From a virus: a stretch of 63,953 nt of DNA. The translations under genes and the position numbers were made by a program. Position 1 is the stretch's first letter, and each line of letters opens with the position of its first letter. The stretch is from positions 1 through 63,953 of IMG/VR virus record IMGVR_UViG_3300009081_000013; one strand, 5' to 3'. Positions 3,703 to 63,953 of the stretch are shown here, one piece after another. The notes beneath the pieces were generated by a model. It was not told where the DNA came from and did no database searches. It saw nothing but the letters and a program-made list of their open reading frames with translations.

Positions 3703-3954
3703 ATGCTCGAAATCCGCATAGATATAGTGCCCTTCGGCCAGGAAAGCATGCGCCGTCCGCTGGAGCAGCTTTACATCATCAACACAGCCGATCACCCGCG
3801 CCGGCCGGAATATGGGAATTACGACGTAAAGGCGGTGAAACATAGCGCGGACGGTATTGAGGTACGGTTTGTCGGGAAGATCAAAGGCCATCCCCGCGAC
3901 AGAGGCTATTGGCCGCTTATCAGAAAAGCAATAAAAGCACTTGACAGCGAGTAA
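3703..3954 (+). CDS. Hypothetical protein
   Basis: An 83-residue protein with an AGGAGAACAC ribosome site. It looks like a mixed alpha/beta domain (EIRIDIVPFGQ..., VRFVGKIKGH) with no recognisable catalytic motif. Its last codons overlap the promoter at 3941-3969. Confidence 0.6.
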   Translation: MLEIRIDIVPFGQESMRRPLEQLYIINTADHPRRPEYGNYDVKAVKHSADGIEVRFVGKIKGHPRDRGYWPLIRKAIKALDSE

Positions 3955-3969
3955 ACGGGAACTCATAAG
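3941..3969 (+). promoter_or_regulatory. Promoter of the shared-spacer family, copy 1
   Basis: TTGACA (3941-3946), 17 bp, CATAAG (3964-3969). The spacer contains AACGGGAACT, and the sequence aligns with the copies at 9675 and 62675 at the same spacing. It would drive the replication genes from 3992 onward. Confidence 0.7.
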
Positions 3970-3991: not shown

Positions 3992-4183
3992 GTGAAGGTA
4001 ATCGGTAAAAGCAATTTTGATCTTGAAACAGTGAGTGACTTTCTCGTGTGTGATAGCGCGACCAAATATTATGCGAAGCGCATCGCAGCGTTTCTTAACG
4101 CACAAGAAGCCGGCGGTGATTACAGCCAGACCTATTATGTCGCTGTGGAAGACGGCTATGAGTTATACCGATGGGAACCGTAA
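3992..4183 (+). CDS. Hypothetical protein
   Basis: A 63-residue product. I chose GTG at 3992, which has AAGGAGG upstream and lies downstream of the promoter at 3941, over the longer frame that begins inside the promoter. The protein is rich in aromatic residues and ends YYVAVEDGYELYRWEP. First gene after promoter copy 1; function unknown. Confidence 0.55.
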   Translation: MKVIGKSNFDLETVSDFLVCDSATKYYAKRIAAFLNAQEAGGDYSQTYYVAVEDGYELYRWEP

Positions 4184-7494: not shown

Positions 7495-9678
7495 TTGATC
7501 CTGACCATCGACTGGGAAACCAGAAGCGCAGCAGACCTTAAATCCTGTGGAGTGTTCCCCTACGCCGTCCACCCATCCACAGAGATGATGTGCCTCTCCG
7601 TCAAAATTGACGCCCGCCCCGTCATGCTCTGGATAAATCAAAAGTTTCAGAGCATGGTGGACATCTCTCAAATTCGCTACGAGATCATCGGCGCCCCGCG
7701 CGTCGCTCAGCTCGTTGCGCAAGCAGATGAGATCCACGCCTTTAATGCCCAATTCGAATACGTAAATTGGAATGACAACGCTGTGCCACGCCTCGGCTGG
7801 GCGCCGCTGCCGCTGGAAAAGCTCCACGATGTCCAGGCACAATGCGCCTACGCAGCGCTGCCCATGCACCTGGGTGAAGCGGGGAAAGCGCTGGGGCTGA
7901 GCATCCAGAAGGACGCCGAGGGCCACAAGATCATGTTAAAACTTTGCCGCCCCCGCCGCCCGCGCAAAGCAGAAAAAGGAGCGTTCCCAAATTGGGCACA
8001 GATGTTGTTCTGGAACGAAGACCCCGCTGACCTGATCAAGCTGTTCAACTATTGTGGCCAGGATGCGGACGCCGAATACTATCTTGGCTCTGTGCTGCCC
8101 AAGCTGCCCGACAAAGAGCGGAAGATCTGGCTCATGGATTTTCGGATCAACAACCGTGGGGTTCCCGTCGATGTCGAAAGCGTCAAGGCTATCATCAAAG
8201 TCGTCGGTGAGCGCGAGGAAAAGCAGTTGGCCCGATTCGCCGAGTTGACCGGGGGCGCCGTGTCTGGTCCACGCAGTTACGTGGCCTTAAAGGCGTGGGT
8301 GCTACAACACATCCCCGGCCTGGACTTTCTTGAATCAGTGGATAAAAATTCTACCGCCGAATTGCTCAAACGTAATGATTTATCCCCCGTCGTAAGAGAA
8401 ATTCTCCAGATCAAGTCCGAATTAAGCAAATCCTCAGTGGCCAAGTTTCGATCCATGATGGATAAACTCTGCGCCGATGAGCGCATCCGAGGTATGTTCG
8501 CCTATCATGGTGCCGCCACGTCACGTTGGGCTGCCCGGGGAGTTCAGCTCCACAACCAGCCACGCGATTCTTACAAGCCAAAGATGTTCGAAGGTGCCGC
8601 CGAGTTGTTCAAAGCCGGGGATGCTGAAGGGCTCGCCCTGCTCTACGACGATCCTTTCTTTGCAGCGTCCCGCTGCATCCGCGGTGCGCTTTGCACGCGC
8701 CCCGGCCGTCGCTTCCTATGCGCTGATTTTTCATCTATCGAAGCAAGGGCTGTGGCACACATCGCCGGCGAGATAGAGGTAGTCGAAGCGTTTCGCTCCG
8801 GCAAAGATCTCTATAAGGTATCCGCCTCCAGCACTTTCAACATACCGTATGAAGAAGTGAACAGCGCCCAGCGCCAGGTGGGCAAGACCTCCATCCTCGC
8901 CCTTGGCTACGGCGGGGGCATCGGCGCATACGCCAAGATGGCCGCCGGTTACAACATCGATCTTGAAACTCTCCCTCCACTCATTCTCCCTACCGCAACG
9001 CCCGAAGAACTCGGCGGGCAGTGGGGGGCCAAAGCGCTCGCCAAAGCCTACCTTGCCCGCACGCCAGATGCTGAGATGAGCTTTGACGCCGCTGTTGCGT
9101 GCGATGTGATCAAGCGCCGCTGGCGAGCCGCCAACCCCAACACTGTGCGCCTGTGGAAAGGTCTGGGCGAAGCAGCCTATCAGGCGGTGGAGCGCCCCGG
9201 CCAGATCTTTGCTTATCGCGGCATCAAGTACGTGGTGCATGGTGGGTTCTTGAAATGTCTCATGCCGGCCGGCGGGGTCATGCATTATTTTGATCCGCAG
9301 ATCCGACCGGTGCGGCGTGTCTGGGAAGAAGATCCGGACTACGAAGGTGATCTGACCATCACTTACATGGGCATGAAGGTGGTCGAAGGTGGGGCGACGA
9401 CGCGCCAATGGACGCGCCTTGCCACCTACGGGGCAAAAATTTGCGAAAATATTACCCAGAAATACTGCCGTGATCTTTTGGCGGAGTCCATGCTACGTCT
9501 CGAAGCCGCTGGCTACCCCGTTGTACTTCATGTTCATGACGAAGCCGCGTCTGAACTCCCTATGGGCGTCGGGTCGCTCAAGGAGTTTGAGCGCCTGGTT
9601 GTTGAAGTCCCCACCTGGGCGGCGGGCATGCCTATCGCTTGTGAAGGTTGGGAGGGGCCGCGCTATTTTAAGGCTTGA
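7495..9678 (+). CDS. Family A DNA polymerase with 3'-5' exonuclease
   Basis: A 727-residue replicative polymerase. The exonuclease domain is complete: IDWE at residues 4-7 (exo I), AFNAQFEYVNW (exo II) and NYCGQDADAEY (exo III). The polymerase domain has motif A ADFSSIEAR (about 410), motif B QVGKTSILALGYGGG (about 459) and motif C HVHDE (about 678). The length and the motif A wording fit the phage PolA clade found with DUF2800/DUF2815. The start is odd: AAGGAG is followed by an in-register ATG at 7491 that is out of frame (it would end after 16 codons), while the polymerase frame opens with TTG at 7495. Confidence 0.93.
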   Translation: MILTIDWETRSAADLKSCGVFPYAVHPSTEMMCLSVKIDARPVMLWINQKFQSMVDISQIRYEIIGAPRVAQLVAQADEIHAFNAQFEYVNWNDNAVPRLGWAPLPLEKLHDVQAQCAYAALPMHLGEAGKALGLSIQKDAEGHKIMLKLCRPRRPRKAEKGAFPNWAQMLFWNEDPADLIKLFNYCGQDADAEYYLGSVLPKLPDKERKIWLMDFRINNRGVPVDVESVKAIIKVVGEREEKQLARFAELTGGAVSGPRSYVALKAWVLQHIPGLDFLESVDKNSTAELLKRNDLSPVVREILQIKSELSKSSVAKFRSMMDKLCADERIRGMFAYHGAATSRWAARGVQLHNQPRDSYKPKMFEGAAELFKAGDAEGLALLYDDPFFAASRCIRGALCTRPGRRFLCADFSSIEARAVAHIAGEIEVVEAFRSGKDLYKVSASSTFNIPYEEVNSAQRQVGKTSILALGYGGGIGAYAKMAAGYNIDLETLPPLILPTATPEELGGQWGAKALAKAYLARTPDAEMSFDAAVACDVIKRRWRAANPNTVRLWKGLGEAAYQAVERPGQIFAYRGIKYVVHGGFLKCLMPAGGVMHYFDPQIRPVRRVWEEDPDYEGDLTITYMGMKVVEGGATTRQWTRLATYGAKICENITQKYCRDLLAESMLRLEAAGYPVVLHVHDEAASELPMGVGSLKEFERLVVEVPTWAAGMPIACEGWEGPRYFKA

Positions 9679-9703
9679 CACCACACAATCGGGAACACAT
9701 AAG
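9675..9703 (+). promoter_or_regulatory. Promoter of the shared-spacer family, copy 2
   Basis: TTGACA (9675-9680), 17 bp, CATAAG (9698-9703). The spacer has ACACAATCGGGAAC, identical to copy 3 at 62675. It overlaps the polymerase stop codon and precedes the gene at 9725. Confidence 0.75.
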
Positions 9704-9724: not shown

Positions 9725-10399
9725 ATGCGACTGAATCAATACGACTTGCAATGGTGTGTCCGGCTGCTCCCCAAGGCGCTGCGCGACATAATGAAAAAAG
9801 AAGAGATTGTTGTCGCCGGCGGGTATGTTCGGTCCTGTGTCACACGCGAGACGGTGAACGACATTGATCTTTTCATCCCCGAGCGTGACTACGCTTTACA
9901 TCTCGCGGCGGCGTTGTCGGTAGGGGCGAAGCCTCACCGAACGGTCAACGCCATCACTGTCCGTGGGTTAAAATACCCGGTGCAGTTTATCACCCGCTGG
10001 GTGTACGACGCCCCACAAGAAGTGCTCTCTTCGTTTGATTTCACCATTTGCCAGGCGGCCTTCTGGTGGGATCACTACTGCCAGCGGTGGGCCAGCGCGG
10101 TGTCGGATGATTTTTACGTGGACCTTGCGGCCAAGCGGCTGGTCTACACCAATCCGGTGCGCGAAGAAGCGCCTGGGGGCAGCATGTTGCGCGTGCTCAA
10201 GTATTACCAGCGCGGCTACCGCATCACAATCAAGTCGCTGTCGGATGTCATCGCCCGGCTGGCCCACGGCGTGCGGTTTGATTACCGCATGGTGTGCGTT
10301 GACGAGTTGGACACGCTGCTGTTCGCTCACGTTGTCAAAGGCTTGCTTCACGAAGTTGATCCGAGCATCGACCCCGATCACATTATTGAGGAGAACTGA
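9725..10399 (+). CDS. Nucleotidyltransferase (polyA-polymerase-head-like)
   Basis: A 224-residue protein. The segment VVAGGYVRSCVTRETVNDIDLFIP (in parts: GGYVRS then DIDLF, about 28-52) is the GG...DxD nucleotidyl-transfer signature of the polymerase beta/CCA-adding superfamily. The remainder lacks the full tRNA-binding body of CCA enzymes, so the substrate is open. Phage versions are usually annotated only as nucleotidyltransferases. It starts behind promoter copy 2 with an AGGAGG site. Confidence 0.7.
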   Translation: MRLNQYDLQWCVRLLPKALRDIMKKEEIVVAGGYVRSCVTRETVNDIDLFIPERDYALHLAAALSVGAKPHRTVNAITVRGLKYPVQFITRWVYDAPQEVLSSFDFTICQAAFWWDHYCQRWASAVSDDFYVDLAAKRLVYTNPVREEAPGGSMLRVLKYYQRGYRITIKSLSDVIARLAHGVRFDYRMVCVDELDTLLFAHVVKGLLHEVDPSIDPDHIIEEN

Positions 10400-46668: not shown

Positions 46669-47280
46669 TTATCGGAACTCCAATGCGCTGCGCAAAGCGT
46701 TCTTTTGCTGAAGCGCTTTAATCAGCGCCGCCTTGGTAGCCGGGTCCACAGAGTTGATCACCTCGATGACCGTCTCCTGAAACTCTTTGACCGCCTTGGC
46801 GTCTGTCAGGGTTTGAAAAATCTCGAGCTGGAACTTTAACTGGGCGCGGATCTCTGCCATGGTGCGAAGCGCCAGGTTGGGGTCGGTCAACGCCATTTGG
46901 CTCCGCTTTTCACCGGAGATCGGATCGGTTGCTTCCACCGTCGTGTAGAGCGTGTCAAGCAGATCATTGGCTGTTTTATTGATTTTGCAGAGCTGGTCGG
47001 CGGTGCGGATCTCACGGGCGATAATCTGCGGTGCTACGCCGGCTGCTTCCCTCACTATCGCGTGCTTTAGCCGGGAGATACGCTGGGACACAGCCGCTGA
47101 GGACACGCCAAAGTGCCGGGCGATCTGGGCGTTGGTACGCCCGGCGCGCACCATCTCATGGAGCTTTGTGTCGTCGATCGTCCCGTGGCCCCGGCCCTTG
47201 TGCGGTTCGGCCGGAACAATAACAAATTCACGGGTTTTCTCGTCGTAATACTCAGTAGTAGGATCGACGCCGACGGGCAT
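46669..47280 (-). CDS. Terminase small subunit-like HTH protein
   Basis: A 203-residue protein. HTH segment VRAGRTNAQIARHFGVSSAA (about 45-64) with SQRISRLKHAI completing the recognition helix, then a helical oligomerisation body. I chose ATG at 47280 (CGGAG six bases upstream) because the longer start at 47325 lies inside the -10 box of the minus promoter. The position just before terL and the HTH fold support recognition of the packaging site. Confidence 0.75.
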   Translation of the reverse strand: MPVGVDPTTEYYDEKTREFVIVPAEPHKGRGHGTIDDTKLHEMVRAGRTNAQIARHFGVSSAAVSQRISRLKHAIVREAAGVAPQIIAREIRTADQLCKINKTANDLLDTLYTTVEATDPISGEKRSQMALTDPNLALRTMAEIRAQLKFQLEIFQTLTDAKAVKEFQETVIEVINSVDPATKAALIKALQQKNALRSALEFR

Positions 47281-47323
47281 TTGGCACTCCGAGGCATGCC
47301 GTTTTGGTATGCCATTTTGGGAC

Positions 47324-47352
47324 ATGTTACCAAAAATACACACAAATGTAAA
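47324..47352 (-). promoter_or_regulatory. Late-block promoter, minus strand
   Basis: On the minus strand TTTACA (47352-47347), 17 bp, TAACAT (47329-47324). It would give a leader of about 37 bases before the small-terminase start at 47280 and drive the long structural block. Confidence 0.6.
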
Positions 47353-47360
47353 GAACGGGC

Positions 47361-47390
47361 TTGACAGAGGGTGTTTTGGGGATGTAGAAA
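47361..47390 (+). promoter_or_regulatory. Divergent promoter, plus strand
   Basis: TTGACA (47361-47366) and TAGAAA (47385-47390) at 18 bp (GTAGAA at 17). It diverges from the late-block promoter and precedes the gene at 47426. Confidence 0.5.
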
Positions 47391-47425
47391 GTGGCTAACA
47401 AACTGCTAAGACTTGGAGGTGGGAA

Positions 47426-47800
47426 ATGGAGTGCGCGTGTATTGATGCCAACGATGGTAACTACGCAATGATGTTGGGTGATCATAAGATCAAGGCGCGA
47501 ACCACACACATCTGCTGCGAGTGCAAAAGAAAGATACTACCCAGCGAGGTTTACAGAAAAGAAGTCGCTGTGTACGACGGGAAAGTGGCTACCTACAAAA
47601 CTTGCAGTGATTGCAACAGCATCCGTGATGAATTTGTTTGTAGCTGGTATTGGGGTGAGATTCACGAAGCTGTAAGAGAGTCGGTATTCAGCAACCTTTG
47701 CGACATCTCAGAAAGCGGAATCGCAAACCTGACCCCGCGGGCCAGGGGTCTTGTTTGTGAATGGATTGAAGAGTGCTGGGAATGGCACGACGAAGATTAA
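47426..47800 (+). CDS. Zinc-ribbon protein
   Basis: A 124-residue protein with THICCECKRKILPSEVY (CxxC at about 30-33) and KTCSDCNSI (CxxC at about 58-61), a treble-clef-like ribbon flanking the strand pair EVYRKEVAVYDGKVATYK. The C-terminal half is helical and acidic with two further cysteines. First gene of the plus-strand accessory block. Confidence 0.65.
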   Translation: MECACIDANDGNYAMMLGDHKIKARTTHICCECKRKILPSEVYRKEVAVYDGKVATYKTCSDCNSIRDEFVCSWYWGEIHEAVRESVFSNLCDISESGIANLTPRARGLVCEWIEECWEWHDED

Positions 47801-48459: not shown

Positions 48460-48671
48460 ATGGTGCGACAATCAGCAAAATGACCATACTGTTCACCCCT
48501 CAAGCAAAAATAACCATGAAAGACGCCGCGCAGATTCTGACCACCCGCCAACAGGAAAAAAAGACCTTTGCCTGGTGGATAGAAAATAATGACACCTTCG
48601 TTGTGTTGGGAGACACCGAAGACGTGGAGAGCGCGGTATATGACATCCTCAGGTTGGAGGAGTCCTTATGA
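48456..48671 (+). CDS. Hypothetical protein
   Basis: A 71-residue protein from ATG at 48456, coupled by ATGA to the preceding gene and to the recombinase after it. Mixed alpha/beta: an N-terminal strand and helix (KMTILFTPQAKITMKDAAQI), then FAWWIENNDTFVVLG. Not recognised. Confidence 0.55.
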   Translation: MNGATISKMTILFTPQAKITMKDAAQILTTRQQEKKTFAWWIENNDTFVVLGDTEDVESAVYDILRLEESL

Positions 48672-49300
48672 CCGACACGAATCTGGTTCCGAATAGGAAC
48701 CACCCAGAAAAAGGCGCCAAGCTCTGGAAGTCGCCCATCAAAAACATCGATGATGTGGAGCGCATCGCCAACATCCTGCGCCCGTCGGCTCGCAACCATG
48801 CGATCTTCCTGGTGGGGGTAAACACCAACCTGCGGGCGTCAGACCTCTGTGCCCTGACGATAGGCGATGTGCGCGATCTCAAAGTGGGCGACCCGCTCAT
48901 GCTCAAAGACCAAAAGCCCAACCGCTACGTCATCCGCGCCGCCAACAAGACACTGGTGGGGGCGGTCAAGCGGCTGCTGGCGGAACACCCGCGATCAGGC
49001 GACGCCGGCGCGCCGCTGTTCCTGTCGCAGCGCGGGGGACCAATTGAAGTTTCGTCGCTGTCGCGTCTGGTGAAAAGCTGGTGCAAGCACGCAAAACTAC
49101 GCGGCCGTTACGGCAGCCACAGTCTGAGGAAAACCTGGGCGTACCATGCGCTGAACACGTTCAGTGTAGAGTTCCACATCGTCTCCGCCGCGCTCGGCCA
49201 TCGTGACCATGCCACAACGCTCACCTACCTTGGCATTCCGGTGAAGGCGATCAAGGCAGCTTTTATGAATGAACTGGGTGTGCCACAACCAAAGGAGTGA
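48668..49300 (+). CDS. Small tyrosine recombinase
   Basis: A 210-residue phage-integrase-family catalytic domain. Active-site set: R56 (NLRASDL), likely Lys83 in the beta hairpin, H151-x-x-R154 (HSLRKT), H178 (GHRDH) and the nucleophile Y187 (TLTYLG). Only about 25 residues precede the catalytic domain, so the arm-binding and most of the core-binding domain of classical integrases are missing. Possible roles: integration with a minimal site, genome-dimer resolution, or inversion. A candidate site lies at 53278-53306. Confidence 0.85.
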   Translation: MTDTNLVPNRNHPEKGAKLWKSPIKNIDDVERIANILRPSARNHAIFLVGVNTNLRASDLCALTIGDVRDLKVGDPLMLKDQKPNRYVIRAANKTLVGAVKRLLAEHPRSGDAGAPLFLSQRGGPIEVSSLSRLVKSWCKHAKLRGRYGSHSLRKTWAYHALNTFSVEFHIVSAALGHRDHATTLTYLGIPVKAIKAAFMNELGVPQPKE

Positions 49301-51767: not shown

Positions 51768-52250
51768 TCATCCCGGTACTACAACCTGCCCCAAGCCGCT
51801 CTGGCGCAGCATGTAAAGGTCTATCTCGCCATACGCCACCAGACAGATGGGCGCTCCACTGTTAAAATCCGCTCTGCGGCCGTCCACGTAGTGGAAATGC
51901 GGCCGGCTCTTGATGAAAAGCACGCCATTGGCCACAGGCCACACTGACTCATAGAACATCGCCGTCTCTGTGCGGGCGGGTATAAGCGCCGTTCCACAGC
52001 CATAAGACGCCATTTTACGCAACCACAGGGCGGCCGCCTTGCCAAACGGCGGGTTAAGCCACACTCGACCAAACCAGGGTTGTACGAGGCCATCGTCTTC
52101 GATCGTAAAAACGTGCCCTGCGGTCGGCCAAGGCTGAACGATGGGCGCGCACGGGTCGAGATCGAAATACCCAAGGCGGTCCAGGATGCTCGGCGGTGTC
52201 AGCCACTCATCGGTTCCCATGCTATGGCTCTGGTGCGACGAAAGACCCAT
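51768..52250 (-). CDS. Phage Dam-type DNA N6-adenine methyltransferase
   Basis: A 160-residue protein. DEWLTPPSILDRLG (about 14-27) and FDLDPCAP match the phage DNA N-6-adenine methyltransferase family, and the catalytic VWLNPPFG (about 63-70) is the DPPY-type motif. No separate target-recognition domain. Probably methylates adenine in the phage genome to evade host restriction. The start at 52250 has no clear ribosome site; an ATG at 52220 is possible. Confidence 0.8.
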   Translation of the reverse strand: MGLSSHQSHSMGTDEWLTPPSILDRLGYFDLDPCAPIVQPWPTAGHVFTIEDDGLVQPWFGRVWLNPPFGKAAALWLRKMASYGCGTALIPARTETAMFYESVWPVANGVLFIKSRPHFHYVDGRRADFNSGAPICLVAYGEIDLYMLRQSGLGQVVVPG

Positions 52251-52256
52251 AAAAAC

Positions 52257-52490
52257 AGCCCCCTGTGTGTCATTTTTGATGCTTTATTATACTGTCCAGA
52301 GCTGCGGTGAGCAAGAAAAAAGCAGGCTGTGCCTCGAAAACAGCCCCTGATCGCCACAGAATCTGCGGTGAAACACGTTAAAAAGCCCCCTGAGCGCCCG
52401 TTAATCTGCGGTTTCACCTGCTGTTCTGCGCTAAAAGCCCCTGATCGCCTGTGAACAGGCCGGTTTCACCTGCTGTTCTGGGGCGAGGCG
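52257..52490. repeat. Degenerate repeats in intergenic region
   Basis: Between the methyltransferase start and the HNH stop lie three imperfect direct repeats built from AGCCCCTGA[TG]CGCC, [A]ATCTGCGGT and TTTCACCTGCTGTTCTG. The last block occurs twice exactly, at about 52411 and 52463. No gene is seen. Function unknown; candidates are protein-binding sites or a recombination relic. Confidence 0.7.
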
Positions 52491-52493
52491 GGG

Positions 52494-53051
52494 CTAAAAA
52501 AGCCTTCTCCACCTAAAAATGCTCTGAACATACTGATATGCGGGGCTATTGCTGTCGCACCCCGCCCAATCGAGACACTGCTCCGCTGCCAGGCGGGCGC
52601 AAACCGCGTCATCGAAGTCCCTGTAGTGCCCCAAAGGCTTCTCTTCCCCCATAACTGTAACCGACGCAAACCATGCAAACATACTCCGGTCCCACATAAC
52701 CCCTTTAATCCCGCTGGAGTTGTGCTTGTGGTTGCCAGTATTCCGCTGGTTACACATGTTTGTAGCTTCCCTCAGGTTATCTAAACGGTTGTCCAGCGGG
52801 TTACGGTTGATGTGGTCAATGTAGTGTTCGGGAAAATAACCATGGACGTGCAGCCAGATGAGGCGGTGGAGCATGTATGCTTTTCGATTGATATGGACCA
52901 CTTTGTAGCTGCGGCCCCCCTTGCTGCTTTTCTTGGTCTTGCCAACCTCCCGCCCCACCGCCCCCCTTGGGCCTCTGCGAACGCGCCGGGTCATAACACC
53001 TTTGACTGGATCATAATCAAACAAGGATCGGACATACTCTTGTGTTAACAA
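52494..53051 (-). CDS. HNH endonuclease with AP2-like DNA-binding domain
   Basis: A 185-residue product. TTG at 53051 is preferred because AGGAG lies eight bases upstream. The HNH core reads MLHRLIWLHVHG...YIDHINRNPLDNRLDNLR (about 82-115, given here in parts), followed by NMCNQRN and, at the C-terminus, SGIKGVMWDRSMFAWFASV, the AP2-like segment common in phage homing-type HNH enzymes. A stand-alone mobile endonuclease gene. Confidence 0.85.
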   Translation of the reverse strand: MLTQEYVRSLFDYDPVKGVMTRRVRRGPRGAVGREVGKTKKSSKGGRSYKVVHINRKAYMLHRLIWLHVHGYFPEHYIDHINRNPLDNRLDNLREATNMCNQRNTGNHKHNSSGIKGVMWDRSMFAWFASVTVMGEEKPLGHYRDFDDAVCARLAAEQCLDWAGCDSNSPAYQYVQSIFRWRRLF

Positions 53052-53277
53052 TGGTTTTTCTCCTCTCTGTAGGTAATTAAGCACATTCTACCACATTGGG
53101 GGGTATAAAATAAAGTCCCCCATTAGAAGCTGTTTTATAAATAGCTTAAAAAATTATGTTTTTGATGGCATTGTATTGCGAGACCGACGCTATTAGGGGA
53201 TCGACTTTGGCAAGGGGTACCACCTTATCAGGAACTATTCCTATTAAAGCCCCTGTTTTCCCCTGATTCTGCCCCAA

Positions 53278-53306
53278 CTTGCCAACTATTCCAATTAGTT
53301 GGCAAG
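53278..53306. other. Perfect 11-7-11 inverted repeat, candidate recombination core site
   Basis: CTTGCCAACTA, a 7-bp spacer TTCCAAT, then TAGTTGGCAAG. Perfect arms of 11 bp around a 6-8 bp asymmetric spacer are the geometry of tyrosine-recombinase core sites (dif, att cores). The phage encodes a small tyrosine recombinase. A simple RNA hairpin is the alternative; no T-run follows on either strand. Confidence 0.5.
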
Positions 53307-53410
53307 CGTATGATGTAAGGTATGCTGCTGGAATTACAGGGAATAGTGCTTGTTTAGCTGGTTCGCTGTCCAGAATCAAATGACTTGGCCCGGGAAAATC
53401 AGAATCAGAC

Positions 53411-53534
53411 GAGACACCTTATATAGTAGGCGCTGGGTATCCTGGCGCTGCTGGGCAATCGATCAGCAAGCGCCGGATAAAAGGCGACGAAGTGTCTCAC
53501 GTGATACACAAGTGTCTCATTTGCTCGTGAGACA
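53411..53534. promoter_or_regulatory. TGTCTCA/TGAGACA site cluster
   Basis: Sites at 53411-53417 (GAGACAC), 53493-53499 and 53513-53519 (TGTCTCA, starts exactly 20 bp apart) and 53528-53534 (TGAGACA, forming an inverted repeat with the third). The helical spacing suggests binding of one protein to one face of the DNA. Confidence 0.55.
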
Positions 53535-53600
53535 GTGCGTCATTTTGGCGCACCTTCGAAAGCTATCAGCTCTATCAATAGCACCTATTGAAAAAGACAA

Positions 53601-53617
53601 TCGTGCAATTTGCACGA
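53601..53617. promoter_or_regulatory. 17-bp perfect palindrome, candidate operator
   Basis: TCGTGCAA-T-TTGCACGA, centred 66 bp upstream of the -35 box at 53675. The size and symmetry suit a dimeric repressor or activator. Confidence 0.5.
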
Positions 53618-53674
53618 ATACAGTACGCCGCATCTGCTCTCTATGAATATTTATTCGAAATGTGAAAATATTTG

Positions 53675-53703
53675 TTGACAAGGATTATGATTATGATAAT
53701 AAT
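53675..53703 (+). promoter_or_regulatory. Strong promoter of the early-type block
   Basis: TTGACA (53675-53680), exactly 17 bp, AATAAT (53698-53703), in a very AT-rich context. It drives the run of small genes from 53735. Its spacer differs from the shared-spacer family. Confidence 0.75.
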
Positions 53704-53734
53704 CGACCATACAACAACAGAAAGGATGGACCGA

Positions 53735-53863
53735 ATGAAATGCAAATGCCAACTGTGCGGTTATGAGTGGCAAGCCCGCACCGAAAACCCGAAGTCTTGC
53801 CCCAACTGCAAAAGCTATAAATGGAACAAAGAAGAAGAGAAAGGGGAGCAAGAAAAGAAATGA
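53735..53863 (+). CDS. Rubredoxin-like mini zinc ribbon
   Basis: A 42-residue protein. CQLCGYEW (5-12) and CPNCKSYKW (23-31) form a rubredoxin-type zinc ribbon, followed by a Glu/Lys tail. I chose ATG at 53735, eight bases after AAAGGA. First gene after the strong promoter. Its stop overlaps the HNH start. Confidence 0.6.
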   Translation: MKCKCQLCGYEWQARTENPKSCPNCKSYKWNKEEEKGEQEKK

Positions 53864-54150
53864 ACCGGGTATCAACTGAAACGAAAAGCCGCAGACTTGC
53901 CCGCGAAATGGCCAAAAAGATCCATCCTTTTATAAGGCCGGATCAGCACGTGCACCACATCGACGGAAACCCGATGAACAACTCTATTGAAAATCTTTGC
54001 ATACTACCCGCGAGTTTCCACGCGCATCTTCACCATTATGGTAAACCAAGCAAATTTAAAAACGTTAGACGGGTAGATTTAAAACGCGACTTAGCAACAC
54101 TCGAAAGATTATTAAAAATTTATAACGAAGGTTTTGTGGATCTTTATTGA
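53860..54150 (+). CDS. HNH endonuclease
   Basis: A 96-residue minimal HNH nuclease. HVHHIDGNPMNNSIENLCIL (about 32-51) contains the two histidines and the asparagines, and SFHAHLHHYG supplies the last histidine. A stand-alone homing-type enzyme. ATG at 53860 overlaps the preceding TGA. Confidence 0.8.
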   Translation: MNRVSTETKSRRLAREMAKKIHPFIRPDQHVHHIDGNPMNNSIENLCILPASFHAHLHHYGKPSKFKNVRRVDLKRDLATLERLLKIYNEGFVDLY

Positions 54151-54204
54151 AAGGGCTTGCGCGGAGGAGTTAAAACCAGAACCAACAGACAAGGAGAAAA
54201 GCAG

Positions 54205-54405
54205 ATGGATAAAATCTACATCATCCAACACCGAGGATATGGTATGAGCGCTTTCCAGAAAATAGAAACCGCTTTAACCAGGTTACACACTATCACTGGG
54301 GAAAAGTTCACAAAAAGGGACCGCGCGCACGTTGAATCCGGCGGAACAATTGATCTACTCGAAAAGCATGAAGTGCGCTTGATACCATTAGCCATAGAGG
54401 ACTAA
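54205..54405 (+). CDS. Hypothetical protein
   Basis: A 66-residue protein with AAGGAG upstream. Strand-helix pattern (KIYIIQHRGYGMSAFQKIET) and an acidic C-terminus. Not recognised. Confidence 0.5.
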   Translation: MDKIYIIQHRGYGMSAFQKIETALTRLHTITGEKFTKRDRAHVESGGTIDLLEKHEVRLIPLAIED

Positions 54406-54409
54406 CCCA

Positions 54410-54499
54410 ATGCTCCCAGAACTTCTTTCAATCATCGCCTCAATACCTTATTTAATGCTCGTACTCGTGGGCATTGGGTATCTGGTAACAAGGAGATAA
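54410..54499 (+). CDS. Tiny membrane protein
   Basis: A 29-residue protein, MLPELLSIIASIPYLMLVLV then GIGYLVTRR: one transmembrane helix with a basic inside end. Very short and without a strong ribosome site, so uncertain. Confidence 0.35.
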   Translation: MLPELLSIIASIPYLMLVLVGIGYLVTRR

Positions 54500-54503
54500 G
54501 CAG

Positions 54504-54644
54504 ATGAAGTTATCTCTCGAACTCCAAATTAAGACCATAACGCCGTGTAAGCGATGCCCACTATTCAAGCAATGCCCGTTTGCATCCAAGGGCAAGTGTG
54601 AACTCCAAAACGCATGGGATCAGACCATGCAGGAAAGGAAATAA
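54504..54644 (+). CDS. Tiny four-Cys protein
   Basis: A 46-residue protein with the Cys pattern TPCKRCPLFKQCPF...KC (residues 14-32), which resembles a cysteine cluster motif for zinc or iron-sulfur binding. ATG at 54504, preceded by AAGGAG. Confidence 0.55.
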   Translation: MKLSLELQIKTITPCKRCPLFKQCPFASKGKCELQNAWDQTMQERK

Positions 54645-54648
54645 GACC

Positions 54649-55251
54649 ATGACAACATATAAAGGTGTCGACTACGGCATGGGAAAAACCAATATCGGCG
54701 AAAAAGGCATACGTTTTGGTGTTATCAACCAGAATGAAGTCGGACAAGCTTGGTTTGAACAAGCCGAAGCCGACTATGGCCCGCCGACTTGTCCGAAATG
54801 CGGCAATGAAGCAATAATCCTTGAGACAATCTCAAGAGAAAGCGACCCACCGGGCTCCTGGGTATCCTTTGAAACTGTTATCCCTAAACACATGGAAAAC
54901 TGGAAAGAAGAAAACCGAGGGTGTATCGAATACGCTTGCGAACATTGCGAATACTTGTTCAGCTCTGACGATGCTTTCGGAGACGAACCACTTGCCTTTT
55001 CCTACACTGGGAGCATATACAAAATCCACCAAAGCGGAAACGACACCGACCTGTTTATCGAAAAATCACCCTTTTTCACCTACGCTCAATTTTGTTCACC
55101 TTGCGCGCCAGGCGCCGTATATCTCATGAACCCCTTGGACGAACCGGACCAGAACAATAAAGGCTATTGCCTTGGTCATGACTGGTTCGAAAGCGGAAAA
55201 GCGCCATACAAGGTTTTCAATGTAGAAACGGGCGAAGAAGTGTCTATTTGA
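54649..55251 (+). CDS. Zinc-ribbon hypothetical protein
   Basis: A 200-residue protein. CPKCGNEAIIL (about 47-57) and CEHCEYLF (about 98-105) form a ribbon; further cysteines appear in FCSPCAPGAVYL (about 148), a pattern seen in several unnamed phage proteins. The N-terminal FGVINQNEVGQAWFE region is unassigned. In the early-type block. Confidence 0.6.
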   Translation: MTTYKGVDYGMGKTNIGEKGIRFGVINQNEVGQAWFEQAEADYGPPTCPKCGNEAIILETISRESDPPGSWVSFETVIPKHMENWKEENRGCIEYACEHCEYLFSSDDAFGDEPLAFSYTGSIYKIHQSGNDTDLFIEKSPFFTYAQFCSPCAPGAVYLMNPLDEPDQNNKGYCLGHDWFESGKAPYKVFNVETGEEVSI

Positions 55252-55329
55252 CTCCTAATCACAGGGACAAGCCAAAGCGCTTGCCCTTGTCATGAGGTAG
55301 TCAAACAACTAAACCGAAAGGAAAAACCA

Positions 55330-55650
55330 ATGAAGAAAGCCACTTTTAGAATCACCCTTGTCAACCCCAAACGCGAACAATTTGTCACCGGATGGATAGG
55401 CCGACAATTTGGCGCGCATAAGAACAACTCCGGAAACTATGTTGTTACCCATTTGCGAACCGGCGTGCGCGTAAGCTGGTTCAACTACCTGAAAAACGCT
55501 AAAGACTTTATTGACCGTATGGAAAAAGCGGCGTGGAAGCAAACCTGGGATTCAAACGACGTTCAAGCAATCGCCAAAGTAAACGGACCTAAAACCAAAG
55601 CGCTCGAAGCAATTGCGCGTGGTATCCAAGGCGTTACTATACCTGAATAG
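55330..55650 (+). CDS. Hypothetical basic protein
   Basis: A 106-residue basic protein (MKKATFRITLVNPKREQFVT...), strand-rich first half, helical second (FIDRMEKAAWKQTW). AAAGGAAA upstream. Not recognised. Confidence 0.55.
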   Translation: MKKATFRITLVNPKREQFVTGWIGRQFGAHKNNSGNYVVTHLRTGVRVSWFNYLKNAKDFIDRMEKAAWKQTWDSNDVQAIAKVNGPKTKALEAIARGIQGVTIPE

Positions 55651-55667
55651 CCTTAAATGGGGGAATA

Positions 55668-55748
55668 ATGAAAGAAGCACTCGCTTTGCTTATTTTCTTT
55701 TGTTGGATGTTTTTTATGCTTGCATTGGGAAACATTTTAGGCTTATAA
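55668..55748 (+). CDS. Tiny membrane protein
   Basis: A 26-residue protein, almost entirely hydrophobic (ALALLIFFCWMFFMLALG). GGGGG precedes the ATG. Size makes it uncertain. Confidence 0.35.
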   Translation: MKEALALLIFFCWMFFMLALGNILGL

Positions 55749-55774
55749 CGAGACCAAAACAAAGGAGAAAAAAC

Positions 55775-55951
55775 ATGTGGGTACTACAAAGGATAAGTCA
55801 AGGCGGCGGATACGTGGCCAAACCAGGACACACAAAATCTTACACTTCCCGAATTCAATACGCGCAAAAATACCTCACCGAAGAAGAGGCACGCGCGGAT
55901 AGCTGCATAGAAAACGAGCGCCCTGTAAGAATCGAATACGTTATAAACTGA
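55775..55951 (+). CDS. Small hypothetical protein
   Basis: A 58-residue protein (MWVLQRISQGGGYVAKPG...) with AAAGGAG upstream. A short strand-turn-strand then a helix YLTEEEARADS, a common small phage protein layout. Function unknown. Confidence 0.5.
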   Translation: MWVLQRISQGGGYVAKPGHTKSYTSRIQYAQKYLTEEEARADSCIENERPVRIEYVIN

Positions 55952-55964
55952 CAAGGAGACTACC

Positions 55965-56126
55965 ATGACCATGAAAAAATTTATCAAGCAAAACAAGGAC
56001 GATCTTGACCGGGCGATCCGGCGCGCATGCTCTAATTGCCGACTAAACGACGCCGAGCGCCGCATGTGGATATTGAACGACGAAGGGCTTTATCGCTGGG
56101 CGCGCAGTGAAGGCGTGAAAATCTAA
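55965..56126 (+). CDS. Small hypothetical protein
   Basis: A 53-residue protein with AAGGAG upstream. Basic helix (KQNKDDLDRAIRRACSNC) with one CxxC. Similar tiny proteins with this DLDRAI...RA pattern occur in phage early regions; function unknown. Confidence 0.5.
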   Translation: MTMKKFIKQNKDDLDRAIRRACSNCRLNDAERRMWILNDEGLYRWARSEGVKI

Positions 56127-57565: not shown

Positions 57566-57594
57566 TTGACACCACACCATTGGGACCTTAGGAG
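57566..57594 (+). promoter_or_regulatory. Promoter of the shared-spacer family, degenerate copy
   Basis: TTGACA (57566-57571), then CCACACCATTGGGACCT, then TAGGAG. It aligns over its full length with copies 2 and 3, but the -10 box is poor and overlaps the ribosome site of the gene at 57601. Confidence 0.5.
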
Positions 57595-57600
57595 AACACC

Positions 57601-57861
57601 ATGCACCTTGAAAAATCAATCAATTTACCCACCCTGCTCTGTGTCGCCTGCCGCGCCTCCCCGGCCTCGGGCATCTACACAGATGGCTTGATCCACGCGC
57701 CGCTTTGTTCCGACTGTTCACCCAAACCAACGAGCGCAATTTACGCCGCGATTATGGAGACGACCAATGCTGTGCCCCCCCTTAAACTGCACAAACATGT
57801 CCGAAGCCGGTTGCCTCGCCAATCAATCCCTTGCCTCCCGAGCCGCAACCAAAGTGAGTAA
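57601..57861 (+). CDS. Small zinc-site protein
   Basis: An 86-residue protein with LLCVACRASPAS (CxxC at 14-17) and PLCSDCSPK (CxxC at 36-39), a one-site zinc finger. The C-terminal 30 residues overlap the next gene in another frame and may be less constrained. AGGAGAACACC site. Confidence 0.55.
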   Translation: MHLEKSINLPTLLCVACRASPASGIYTDGLIHAPLCSDCSPKPTSAIYAAIMETTNAVPPLKLHKHVRSRLPRQSIPCLPSRNQSE

Positions 57862-58104: not shown

Positions 58105-58650
58105 ATGACCAAAATCGAACAGCTGCGCGTCTATTGCCGCACGGTGGGCAAGCCTTTCACCTCCAAAGAAGCGCTCGCCGCCGTGCCCATGGGAAAGTCG
58201 TGCATGTCCGTCTATTTGCCCACGTTGGCCAAACAAGGCTTGATCCGCAACAGTGGTCACCGCGTTGACGGCTTGTACCTTTACGAACTGGTCCAGGACG
58301 CGCGGGCCGATGTGGATACCGTTGAACGTCCTGTGGACGAACCTAAGCCCTCGACAAAAGCCAAGGCAATGCCCTCCTCCCTTTCCCTGGATGACATTGG
58401 CGCCGCCGTCATGGGCCACGTCGAGCGCCTGGAGCGCCGCATAGCCACCTTGGAAGGCCAAGCCAAGGACACCGCCACACAGGCTCGCCTGCGCGCCGCT
58501 GAACACAAACGCGCGCTGGATGAGAAAGAACAAGAGAAGCGGCGGCTGGCCGACACCATTGTCGAGCTGAACGGGCGCATCGCTGCCCTCCAAGTCGTTC
58601 GCCGTCCGGCTGTCGCCGTGGGGCGGTTTTTTGAGGGGGTGGGGAAATGA
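58105..58650 (+). CDS. Winged-helix plus coiled-coil protein
   Basis: A 181-residue protein. Residues 1-65 look like a winged helix (KPFTSKEALAAVPMGKSCMS; VYLPTLAKQGLIRN). After a Pro/Lys linker, residues 95-165 form a long charged coiled coil (RLERRIATLEGQAKDTATQA). Probably a DNA-binding, dimerising regulator. ATG at 58105 or 58099, both behind AAGGAG. Confidence 0.6.
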   Translation: MTKIEQLRVYCRTVGKPFTSKEALAAVPMGKSCMSVYLPTLAKQGLIRNSGHRVDGLYLYELVQDARADVDTVERPVDEPKPSTKAKAMPSSLSLDDIGAAVMGHVERLERRIATLEGQAKDTATQARLRAAEHKRALDEKEQEKRRLADTIVELNGRIAALQVVRRPAVAVGRFFEGVGK

Positions 58651-59372: not shown

Positions 59373-59868
59373 TGTACTTTAAGCCTCCTTAACTTAAACT
59401 CAGTTAGCGCTCGCGTCAGTTGCTACAGGTTGGGGAGATAACCGTCGGACGGGATAACCGTCCAGACGTATCTCCCTAAGCAACTTGCATTTGGACTGTT
59501 TGACCACCCGACGGTTATTAAGTATTGGAATTTACAACAAAAAGATTTTTTGGGAAACCGTCCGGGAAACCGTCCGACGGTTAAACCCTCCGACGGTTTG
59601 CACAAAAGTGCACATTTTTCTTCTATGTCCTTGATTTTATTCATAGCGAGCAAACCGTCCGAACCTTAACTGTTTTAAACTGTTTAGCCGTTTTAAGCCT
59701 TAACTCGTCTAAACTCCAACCATTTTGTGCACAAAAGTAGACACTTTTTAAGCTTAACTCGTCTAAACCACCGGGAAACTGTGTCTAAAAAACAACACTT
59801 TAAGCTTAACTCACTTCTACTGCCGGGAACTTTAGCCGGCTTAACACGCGGGAACTGTTTAGCGCAGT
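59373..59868. other. AT-rich repeat region, candidate replication origin
   Basis: 496 bp with no convincing gene. ACCGTC[CG]GACGG-type sites occur at least six times between about 59450 and 59665, some palindromic. A second repeat, TTAAG[C]CTTAACTCGTCTAAAC, lies at about 59694 and 59749 with a shortened copy at about 59800. Two GTGCACAAAAG-like elements and several GGGAA[AC]CTGT copies add to it. Iterated sites in AT-rich DNA next to a prim-pol/RepA-type gene suggest an origin. Confidence 0.55.
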
Positions 59869-62674: not shown

Positions 62675-62703
62675 TTGACAGCACACAATCGGGAACTCAT
62701 AAG
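62675..62703 (+). promoter_or_regulatory. Promoter of the shared-spacer family, copy 3
   Basis: TTGACA (62675-62680), 17 bp including ACACAATCGGGAAC, CATAAG (62698-62703). It diverges from the minus-strand promoter at 62612-62640 and drives the genes from 62734 through the contig junction. Confidence 0.75.
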
Positions 62704-62733: not shown

Positions 62734-63141
62734 ATGATTCAAGAATTTGTGGGCCGATTCATGGCGAACAAGGAAATCCTGGCGGCGCAGTTTCGCCTCA
62801 CCCCGCCGAGCGATTACGAAGATCTGGTGCGCAGTACTATCAAATTGATAGCGGGCGAGGAGGAGTATGACGACCCCGATCCGGAGCGCGTCCACAAGAT
62901 TGACGATGGTGATTACCAAGGCACGCTGGTCTTTGTCATCGGCGCGCAAGGCTACCAGCCTGATCGCTATTGGTACGTCAAGGTTGGCTACGGGTCTTGC
63001 TCTGGCTGTGACACCTTGCAGCGCATCGAGGCTGATGGTGAGTTCGACGAGTCACCGAACGAAGGACAGGTTGCTGATTACGTAACCTTGGCGCTGCACA
63101 TCGTTCAAGGATTAAAGGAGATGGGCGATGAAGTTGTTTAA
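62734..63141 (+). CDS. Hypothetical protein
   Basis: A 135-residue alpha/beta acidic protein. DYQGTLVFVIGAQGYQPDRY and WYVKVGYGSCSGCDTLQRIE, with a conserved SCSGCD, is a frequent phage protein of unknown function. First gene after promoter copy 3, AAAGGAG site. Confidence 0.7.
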   Translation: MIQEFVGRFMANKEILAAQFRLTPPSDYEDLVRSTIKLIAGEEEYDDPDPERVHKIDDGDYQGTLVFVIGAQGYQPDRYWYVKVGYGSCSGCDTLQRIEADGEFDESPNEGQVADYVTLALHIVQGLKEMGDEVV

Positions 63142-63387: not shown

Positions 63388-63953
63388 ACTGACGACCAAA
63401 GAGAACACCACCAAAGGAGACACGCTGTGGGGAACAAACGTGACTCACCGCCTTCCCGCCAGGGAAGACCCTCGCCTCTGCACCTCAACAGTGATTCACG
63501 CCTATGACGATTTGAATCTGGCCCTGCTGCTTAACCCTATTCACGGTGGTTTCGAGCCCTTTAACATTTGGGAAGCAGAAGGCGAGGTTGTGGTGCGTGA
63601 TTGGGGAAAAGTCGGCTGCTTTGAGCTGACGACGGTGCGCCAAATCGGGCTGCCACAGTGGTATGTCGAACGACGAATAGCGGTGTGTGTTGAGTTTGCT
63701 AAGCTATGTGCCGCCGCCGCCGCTCGCTCCGCCACTCGCTACGCCGTCGACGCCGCTTGCTACGCCGACGCCACTCGCTACGCCGCCGCTCGCTCCGCCG
63801 CTCGCTCCGCCGCTCGCTCCGCCGCTGACGCCGCCGCTGACGCTGCCGCTCGTTGCGCCGCCGATGCCGCTCGTTACGCCGCTGACGCTGCCGCTCGTTA
63901 CGCCGCTGACGCTGCCGCTCGTTACGCCGCTGACGCTGCCGCTCGTTACGCCG
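63374..63953 (+). CDS. Alanine-rich repeat protein, N-terminal part (continues at 1)
   Basis: ATG at 63374 behind AAAGGAG. The N-terminal domain of about 110 residues (MKLFKLTTKENTTKGDTLWG; LALLLNPIHGGFEPFNIWEA; CFELTTVRQIGLPQWYVERR) is conserved in a family of phage proteins with Ala-rich tails. After FAKLCAAAAA the sequence turns into Ala/Arg/Ser/Tyr/Asp repeats that settle into exact AADAAARY units at 63878. It runs off the window and ends at 290 once the circle is closed. Function unknown. Confidence 0.8.
   Translation, partial: MKLFKLTTKENTTKGDTLWGTNVTHRLPAREDPRLCTSTVIHAYDDLNLALLLNPIHGGFEPFNIWEAEGEVVVRDWGKVGCFELTTVRQIGLPQWYVERRIAVCVEFAKLCAAAAARSATRYAVDAACYADATRYAAARSAARSAARSAADAAADAAARCAADAARYAADAAARYAADAAARYAADAAARYA
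63878..63953 (+). repeat. 24-bp tandem repeat, end of contig
   Basis: Three exact 24-bp units and four bases of a fourth. 63876-63953 equals 1-78, showing that the genome is circular or circularly permuted and that the assembler stopped within this array. Confidence 0.95.

Follow-up and report, generated by a model that had tools for sequence, protein, structure and literature searches.

The 63,953-base virus record IMGVR_UViG_3300009081_000013 (IMG/VR; taken at its full length and hereafter called the window) carries three boxes in which TTGACA and CATAAG stand exactly 17 bp apart with matching spacers, and judging from their sequence these look like a coordinated promoter set and not like the product of chance. 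The reading we favour, at a probability of roughly 0.6, is that they are sigma-70-type promoters of the replication operon bearing a third, lineage-specific element, and that the element is most likely read by a phage factor. The rightward replication operon would be started at several points, namely at its head, before the exonuclease, SSB and polymerase genes, and past the polymerase, with the boxes acting as transcription starts. In addition to the -35 and -10, selection would maintain a third element at -20 to -14 that consists of CGGG and then R-M-C. The stretch from -20 to -12 would be recognised by a reader acting in trans, most likely one from the phage that works with or against the host RNA polymerase, and this recognition would make the operons fire together.

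A preliminary description, made from the letters of the window alone, had listed copies at 3941, 9675 and 62675 (boxes B, C and A in what follows), and a search of the whole contig bears this out: TTGACA-N17-CATAAG occurs exactly three times, always on the + strand, with no occurrence on the - strand and none of a reversed control pattern. The spacers (GCGAGTAAACGGGAACT in box B, CCACACAATCGGGAACA in box C and GCACACAATCGGGAACT in box A) also match as described, all three agreeing at 10 of 17 positions, while none of 200,000 random triples reached even 8. A first-order Markov null gives 0.03 TTGACA-17-NATAA[GC] sites per genome and 0 with CGGG in the spacer, and among the 30 TTGACA sequences in the window CGGG stands at offset 9 in 3. 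Scanning the window with a matrix built on the three boxes returned no further full copy. The weaker copy that had been placed at 57566 holds up in its 5' part (TTGACACCACACCATTGGGAC; 3 mismatches over 21, one of 3 matches against 0.03 expected), which keeps the -35 half and GGGA; its position-matrix scores are 18-22, with best shuffle scores of 9.5-20. It is best read as a real 5' match and, because TAGGAG occupies the place of the -10, as no complete promoter. Taken together, the Markov null, the random triples and the null for the 57566 match rule out a chance origin of the boxes.

For comparison we used three metagenomic phage contigs, found by a pattern scan and by protein searches of a viral collection: L004, G001 (the same as L006) and G002 (the same as L007; 63.3 kb). 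Their exonucleases are 93%, 57% and 56% identical to that of the window, respectively, and their DNA polymerases, where present, are 62-71% identical. Searches of viral contigs with the ribbon-helix-helix (RHH), SSB and polymerase proteins yielded no additional box-bearing relatives; the set is one of four contigs, effectively two lineages, drawn from collections that may omit near records, and gene starts were used as called, uncurated. The relatives hold five further boxes. Orthologs of box A (L006 1337; G002 453, - strand) are each divergent from a homolog of the RHH gene, those of box C (L006 12887; G002 50313, - strand) lie directly past the polymerase stop, and that of box B (L004 4059-4087, - strand) is found in the same context. 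Across all eight boxes in four phages TTGACA, CGGG (-20 to -17) and ATAA are invariant, whereas the N9 half of the spacer varies almost freely, and the consensus is TTGACA-N9-CGGG-R-M-C-N-S-ATAA-G/C, where one box has T in place of the C that follows R-M. Between the window and G001/G002, orthologous places agree at 6/6 positions of the -35, 4/4 of CGGG and 4-5/6 of the -10, as against 1-3/9 of N9, 5-11/25 of the upstream flank and 10-14/25 of the downstream flank. A lack of spacer conservation in relatives had been set beforehand as a refuting outcome; conservation was found for CGGG and a following C and not for the N9 half. This supports a functional element and narrows the earlier proposal, in which the spacer is an operator for a shared regulator, to -20 to -14. 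Positions -15 and -12 are A and C in the window and L004, and C and G in G001 and G002, the same at all places within each clade, a pattern to be expected where a single reader in each clade acts on every box.

Judged against sigma-70 promoters, the eight boxes possess a perfect -35 (8 of 8) at a constant and exact 17 bp from a -10 whose ATAA core is likewise present in 8 of 8, its first base being C or G and its last G or C. Sigma-70 -10 elements (TATAAT, with A second, 16-18 bp from the -35) usually end in T, and a consensus promoter scanner that demands this last T omits the boxes because it is absent. No TG of an extended -10 (TGn) occurs at -15/-14 in any of the eight, a shared T-rich stretch 5' of the -35 (the UP-element check) was seen at box A only, and no consistent + strand stem-loop was found adjoining the boxes. 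A ribosome-binding site follows shortly 3' of each full box of the window, and 21-30 bases separate the box from the start codon. This spacing is compatible with a transcription start 5-9 bp past the -10, and a start at the predicted ~7 bp past CATAAG would retain the ribosome-binding site. Box A stands at the head of the rightward operon, divergent from the small RHH gene, box B and the 3' end of a short gene located behind the helicase (ending at 3954) overlap, and so do the TTGACA of box C and the DNA polymerase stop codon (Table 1). An alternative in which GGAAC is the -35 of an ECF-sigma promoter was rejected, there being no conserved -10 ~16 bp on, and relatives have CGGGGCC.

Table 1. 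Boxes of the window, box-like sites and the genes beside them
Feature	Positions	Strand	Details
Box A	62675..62703	+	TTGACA 62675-62680, CGGGAAC 62690-62696, CATAAG 62698-62703
Box B	3941..3969	+	TTGACA, CGGGAAC 3956-3962, CATAAG
Box C	9675..9703	+	TTGACA, CGGGAAC 9690-9696, CATAAG
Partial box	57566..57594	+	TTGACACCACACCATTGGGACC, then ribosome-binding site at the expected -10 place
Possible diverged relative	47361..47390	+	TTGACA-18-TAGAAA, TGGGGATG immediately 5' of the -10; heads the other + strand operon
RHH-like DNA-binding protein, 50 aa	62412..62564	-	Pfam NikA-like, E 1.1e-4, under the curated cut-off
First gene past box A	62734..63141	+	PHROG 12588, function unassigned; no homolog in relatives
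63-aa gene past box B	3992..4183	+	absent from L004
Gene past box C	9725..10399	+	weak nucleotidyltransferase match; absent from G001 and G002
Gene past partial box	57601..57861	+	no homolog in G002

Candidates for the reader are the RHH protein, another phage factor and the host RNA polymerase, the last being the main alternative. We consider it possible, at well under even odds, that CGGG is a core-promoter feature read by the host polymerase itself through spacer or upstream -10 contacts, with no separate regulator, the phage optimising all of its early promoters alike. By analogy the closest precedent would be the strong sigma-70 early promoters of T4, whose extra consensus beyond the known elements has been taken as optimising contact with the host polymerase (PMC2988021). 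They too are repeated phage promoters for a host-type polymerase with conserved letters beyond the -35 and -10; however, the T4 promoters have UP, TGn and a TATAAT-like -10, whereas the boxes have no TGn, a -10 of CATAAG/GATAAS, and CGGG at -20 to -17. Also in favour of host recognition, the site at 47361 keeps the distance from GGG to the -10 that is seen in the boxes although its spacer is 18 bp, which would tie the element to the -10, in one case only; its ortholog in G002 (11557, - strand) reads TTGACA-17-TAGATT with CGGG. On the other hand, a scan of ~85,000 bacterial and archaeal species genomes for a host promoter of the type TTGACA-N9-CGGGAAC-N-CATAA gave only 3 matches, all chance-like (2 of the 3 are apparently one coding sequence in two related metagenome-assembled genomes), and no bacterial genus in this set uses the window version of the box widely. 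The difference between clades at -15 and -12 likewise argues against the host polymerase as reader.

On the side of the phage, the best-placed candidate reader would be the RHH protein encoded beside box A. Its homologs at the same place are 56% (G001) and 42% (G002) identical, and the gene is kept divergent from the place of box A in three phages (the window, G001 and G002). Of the beta-alpha-alpha fold of this family, a structural model has helices at residues 13-25 and 36-45 (pLDDT 85), the N-terminal strand being unassigned in the monomer, and the best fold match is TTHA0139 (E 0.17, probability 0.97). Although speculative, the protein might bind CGGGRMC within the spacer and switch all promoters of the replication operon together, its recognition letters co-evolving with the boxes in each clade; in this specific form the proposal is doubtful. 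A winged-helix protein at 58105-58650, also put forward at the outset, is not supported as such by Pfam or PHROGs, and its likeness to a relative is confined to the C-terminal part. Neither a phage sigma factor nor a phage RNA polymerase was recognised by Pfam or PHROGs among the ~40 window proteins scanned, and the HTH protein at 46669-47343 gave weak matches only, including one to a sigma-factor family at E 0.005.

Several points weigh against a phage-read spacer element in sigma-70-type promoters. The -10 sequences CATAAG and GATAAC lack the usual final T, and CGGG may be a host-specific core element. Two of the four contigs are short fragments, and G001 and G002 are mutually close, which leaves about two independent lineages behind the letters that distinguish the clades. 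Moreover, CGGG is non-palindromic, and the RHH promoter region of the window holds no extra copy of it, so that beyond position the sequence gives no support for binding by the RHH protein.

If a factor does read an element inside the spacer, phages would have a further way of controlling promoters, in addition to the replacement of the -35 that is known from T4 middle promoters. The boxes give an uncultured phage group a candidate regulon that can be tested, with one short element, three promoters and an adjacent candidate regulator. They also illustrate that selection can be told apart from copying where repeated phage promoters have a variable spacer half that is inherited in place.

A full account by recent copying or recombination joints, with the boxes as leftover mobile promoter cassettes whose spacer match reflects history and not function, appears improbable. 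The preliminary description had raised spread by recombination, and a part of this idea stands: boxes A and C share 8 of 9 positions of N9, so a copying event between them is likely, and the 57566 copy retains the N9 half without a -10. It does not extend to the CGGG match. Within G001, and likewise within G002, the two boxes have the -35 and CGGG in common and agree at only 1-3 of 9 positions of N9, whereas place by place the two phages are identical at 7/9 and 9/9. Their boxes are thus best understood as inherited in place and not homogenised by one another, with CGGG retained, and recombination alone is insufficient because boxes at different places carry unrelated, inherited N9 sequences and a common CGGG. 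Furthermore, no common flank extends beyond the box. Selection on the segment from -20 to -14 would be the simplest account of the CGGG match.

Gene content behind the boxes could also be taken as a sign of copying, since the gene behind each of the four window boxes, counting the partial one, differs from that in the relatives and has no homolog in those searched. In L004 the box B ortholog directly precedes the ortholog of the window's next gene past the 63-aa gene, and G001 and G002 carry a different short gene behind box C. However, ~60% of the compared window early genes lack homologs in relatives (a hand count), so four of four has a chance of ~0.1, and an accessory-gene or cargo slot behind the boxes is for this reason only suggestive and is not claimed. 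T4-type PeSL promoter/stem-loop cassettes (Arbiol 2010; Comeau 2014), as far as they are outlined through PMC4503421, similarly place a conserved promoter, linked to a stem-loop terminator, at joints of varying gene content; the boxes differ from that outline in having no consistent stem-loop and only three full copies.

That the boxes act in RNA, or at translation starts as the mycobacteriophage start-associated sequences (SAS) do, is highly improbable: all full boxes do lie a few tens of bases 5' of start codons, but the perfect TTGACA and its constant 17-bp distance from ATAA fit promoter recognition at the DNA level, the ribosome-binding site is separate and 3' of the box, and in two cases the box extends into the end of the gene before it. 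The SAS and ESAS are short asymmetric repeated motifs 5' of gene starts (PMC3203893), and the ESAS consensus varies by subcluster as the box letters do by clade. In contrast to the boxes, which end 21-30 bases before the start codon, SAS are 13-bp sequences tied to translation starts with no -35/-10 pair, and ESAS are 17-bp inverted repeats; no inverted repeat was found in the box A region of the window. The stoperators of Cluster A mycobacteriophages, asymmetric directional repeats proposed to stop transcription (PMC4351075), resemble the boxes in this directionality and in having one presumed reader for all sites, but they are dispersed, whereas every full box is promoter-like and directly before a gene.

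Other box-like matches were set aside. Diverged sites at L006 5805 and G002 57180 (TTGACG-N9-CGGG-N4-TAGTAA) may reflect coding conservation only, and a match in L024 looks coding. The match in L021 is the promoter of an unrelated phage, in which those window proteins that were tested have no homologs; at L021 5593-5621 it reads TTGACA-N9-CGGGGGCTCATAACCCCCG and has a perfect palindrome extending across the -10. Around the 47361 site, a second divergent promoter region (47290-47440) contains the sequence CCATTTTGGNANATGTTACCAAA (a TTTTGG-N9-CCAAAA palindrome in the window), which is conserved with G002; the region adjoins the HTH gene 46669-47343 (- strand) and looks like a separate operator.

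The structural genes of the window (portal, terminase) are on the - strand, and the replication genes (helicase, exonuclease, DNA polymerase) are on the + strand, spanning the contig ends. Because these ends overlap by exactly 78 bp within a 24-bp tandem repeat, the assembly is probably circularly permuted or circular. The 24-bp repeats (63700-63953 and 1-270) apparently encode an Ala-rich repeat protein that spans the ends, and the termini of G002 carry similar GC-rich repeats. The portal, ~21-24% identical to those of Proteobacteria phages such as KPP25 and PEp14, is a distant relative of these, and positions 1-25000 gave no megablast match to cultured phages. Apparent inteins, absent from the window copies, occur in the helicase of L004 (4837-6936, - strand) and in the DNA polymerase of G001 (L006 9760-12879), a protein of 1039 aa that has an internal insertion. 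A short tyrosine recombinase at 48668-49300 (Pfam Phage_integrase, E 6.5e-21; conserved in G002, 63%) prompts the question whether it serves a temperate lifestyle or resolution. An AT-rich island (52000-56000; 45-50% GC) with HNH endonuclease genes was probably acquired, and holds a consensus-type, CGGG-free promoter (TTGACA-17-AATAAT) at 53675. Finally, the noncoding stretch 59400-59868, which adjoins the primase/helicase gene and is rich in repeats resembling AACCGTC(C/G)GACGGTT and in TTTAAGCTTAACTCG repeats, is a candidate replication origin.
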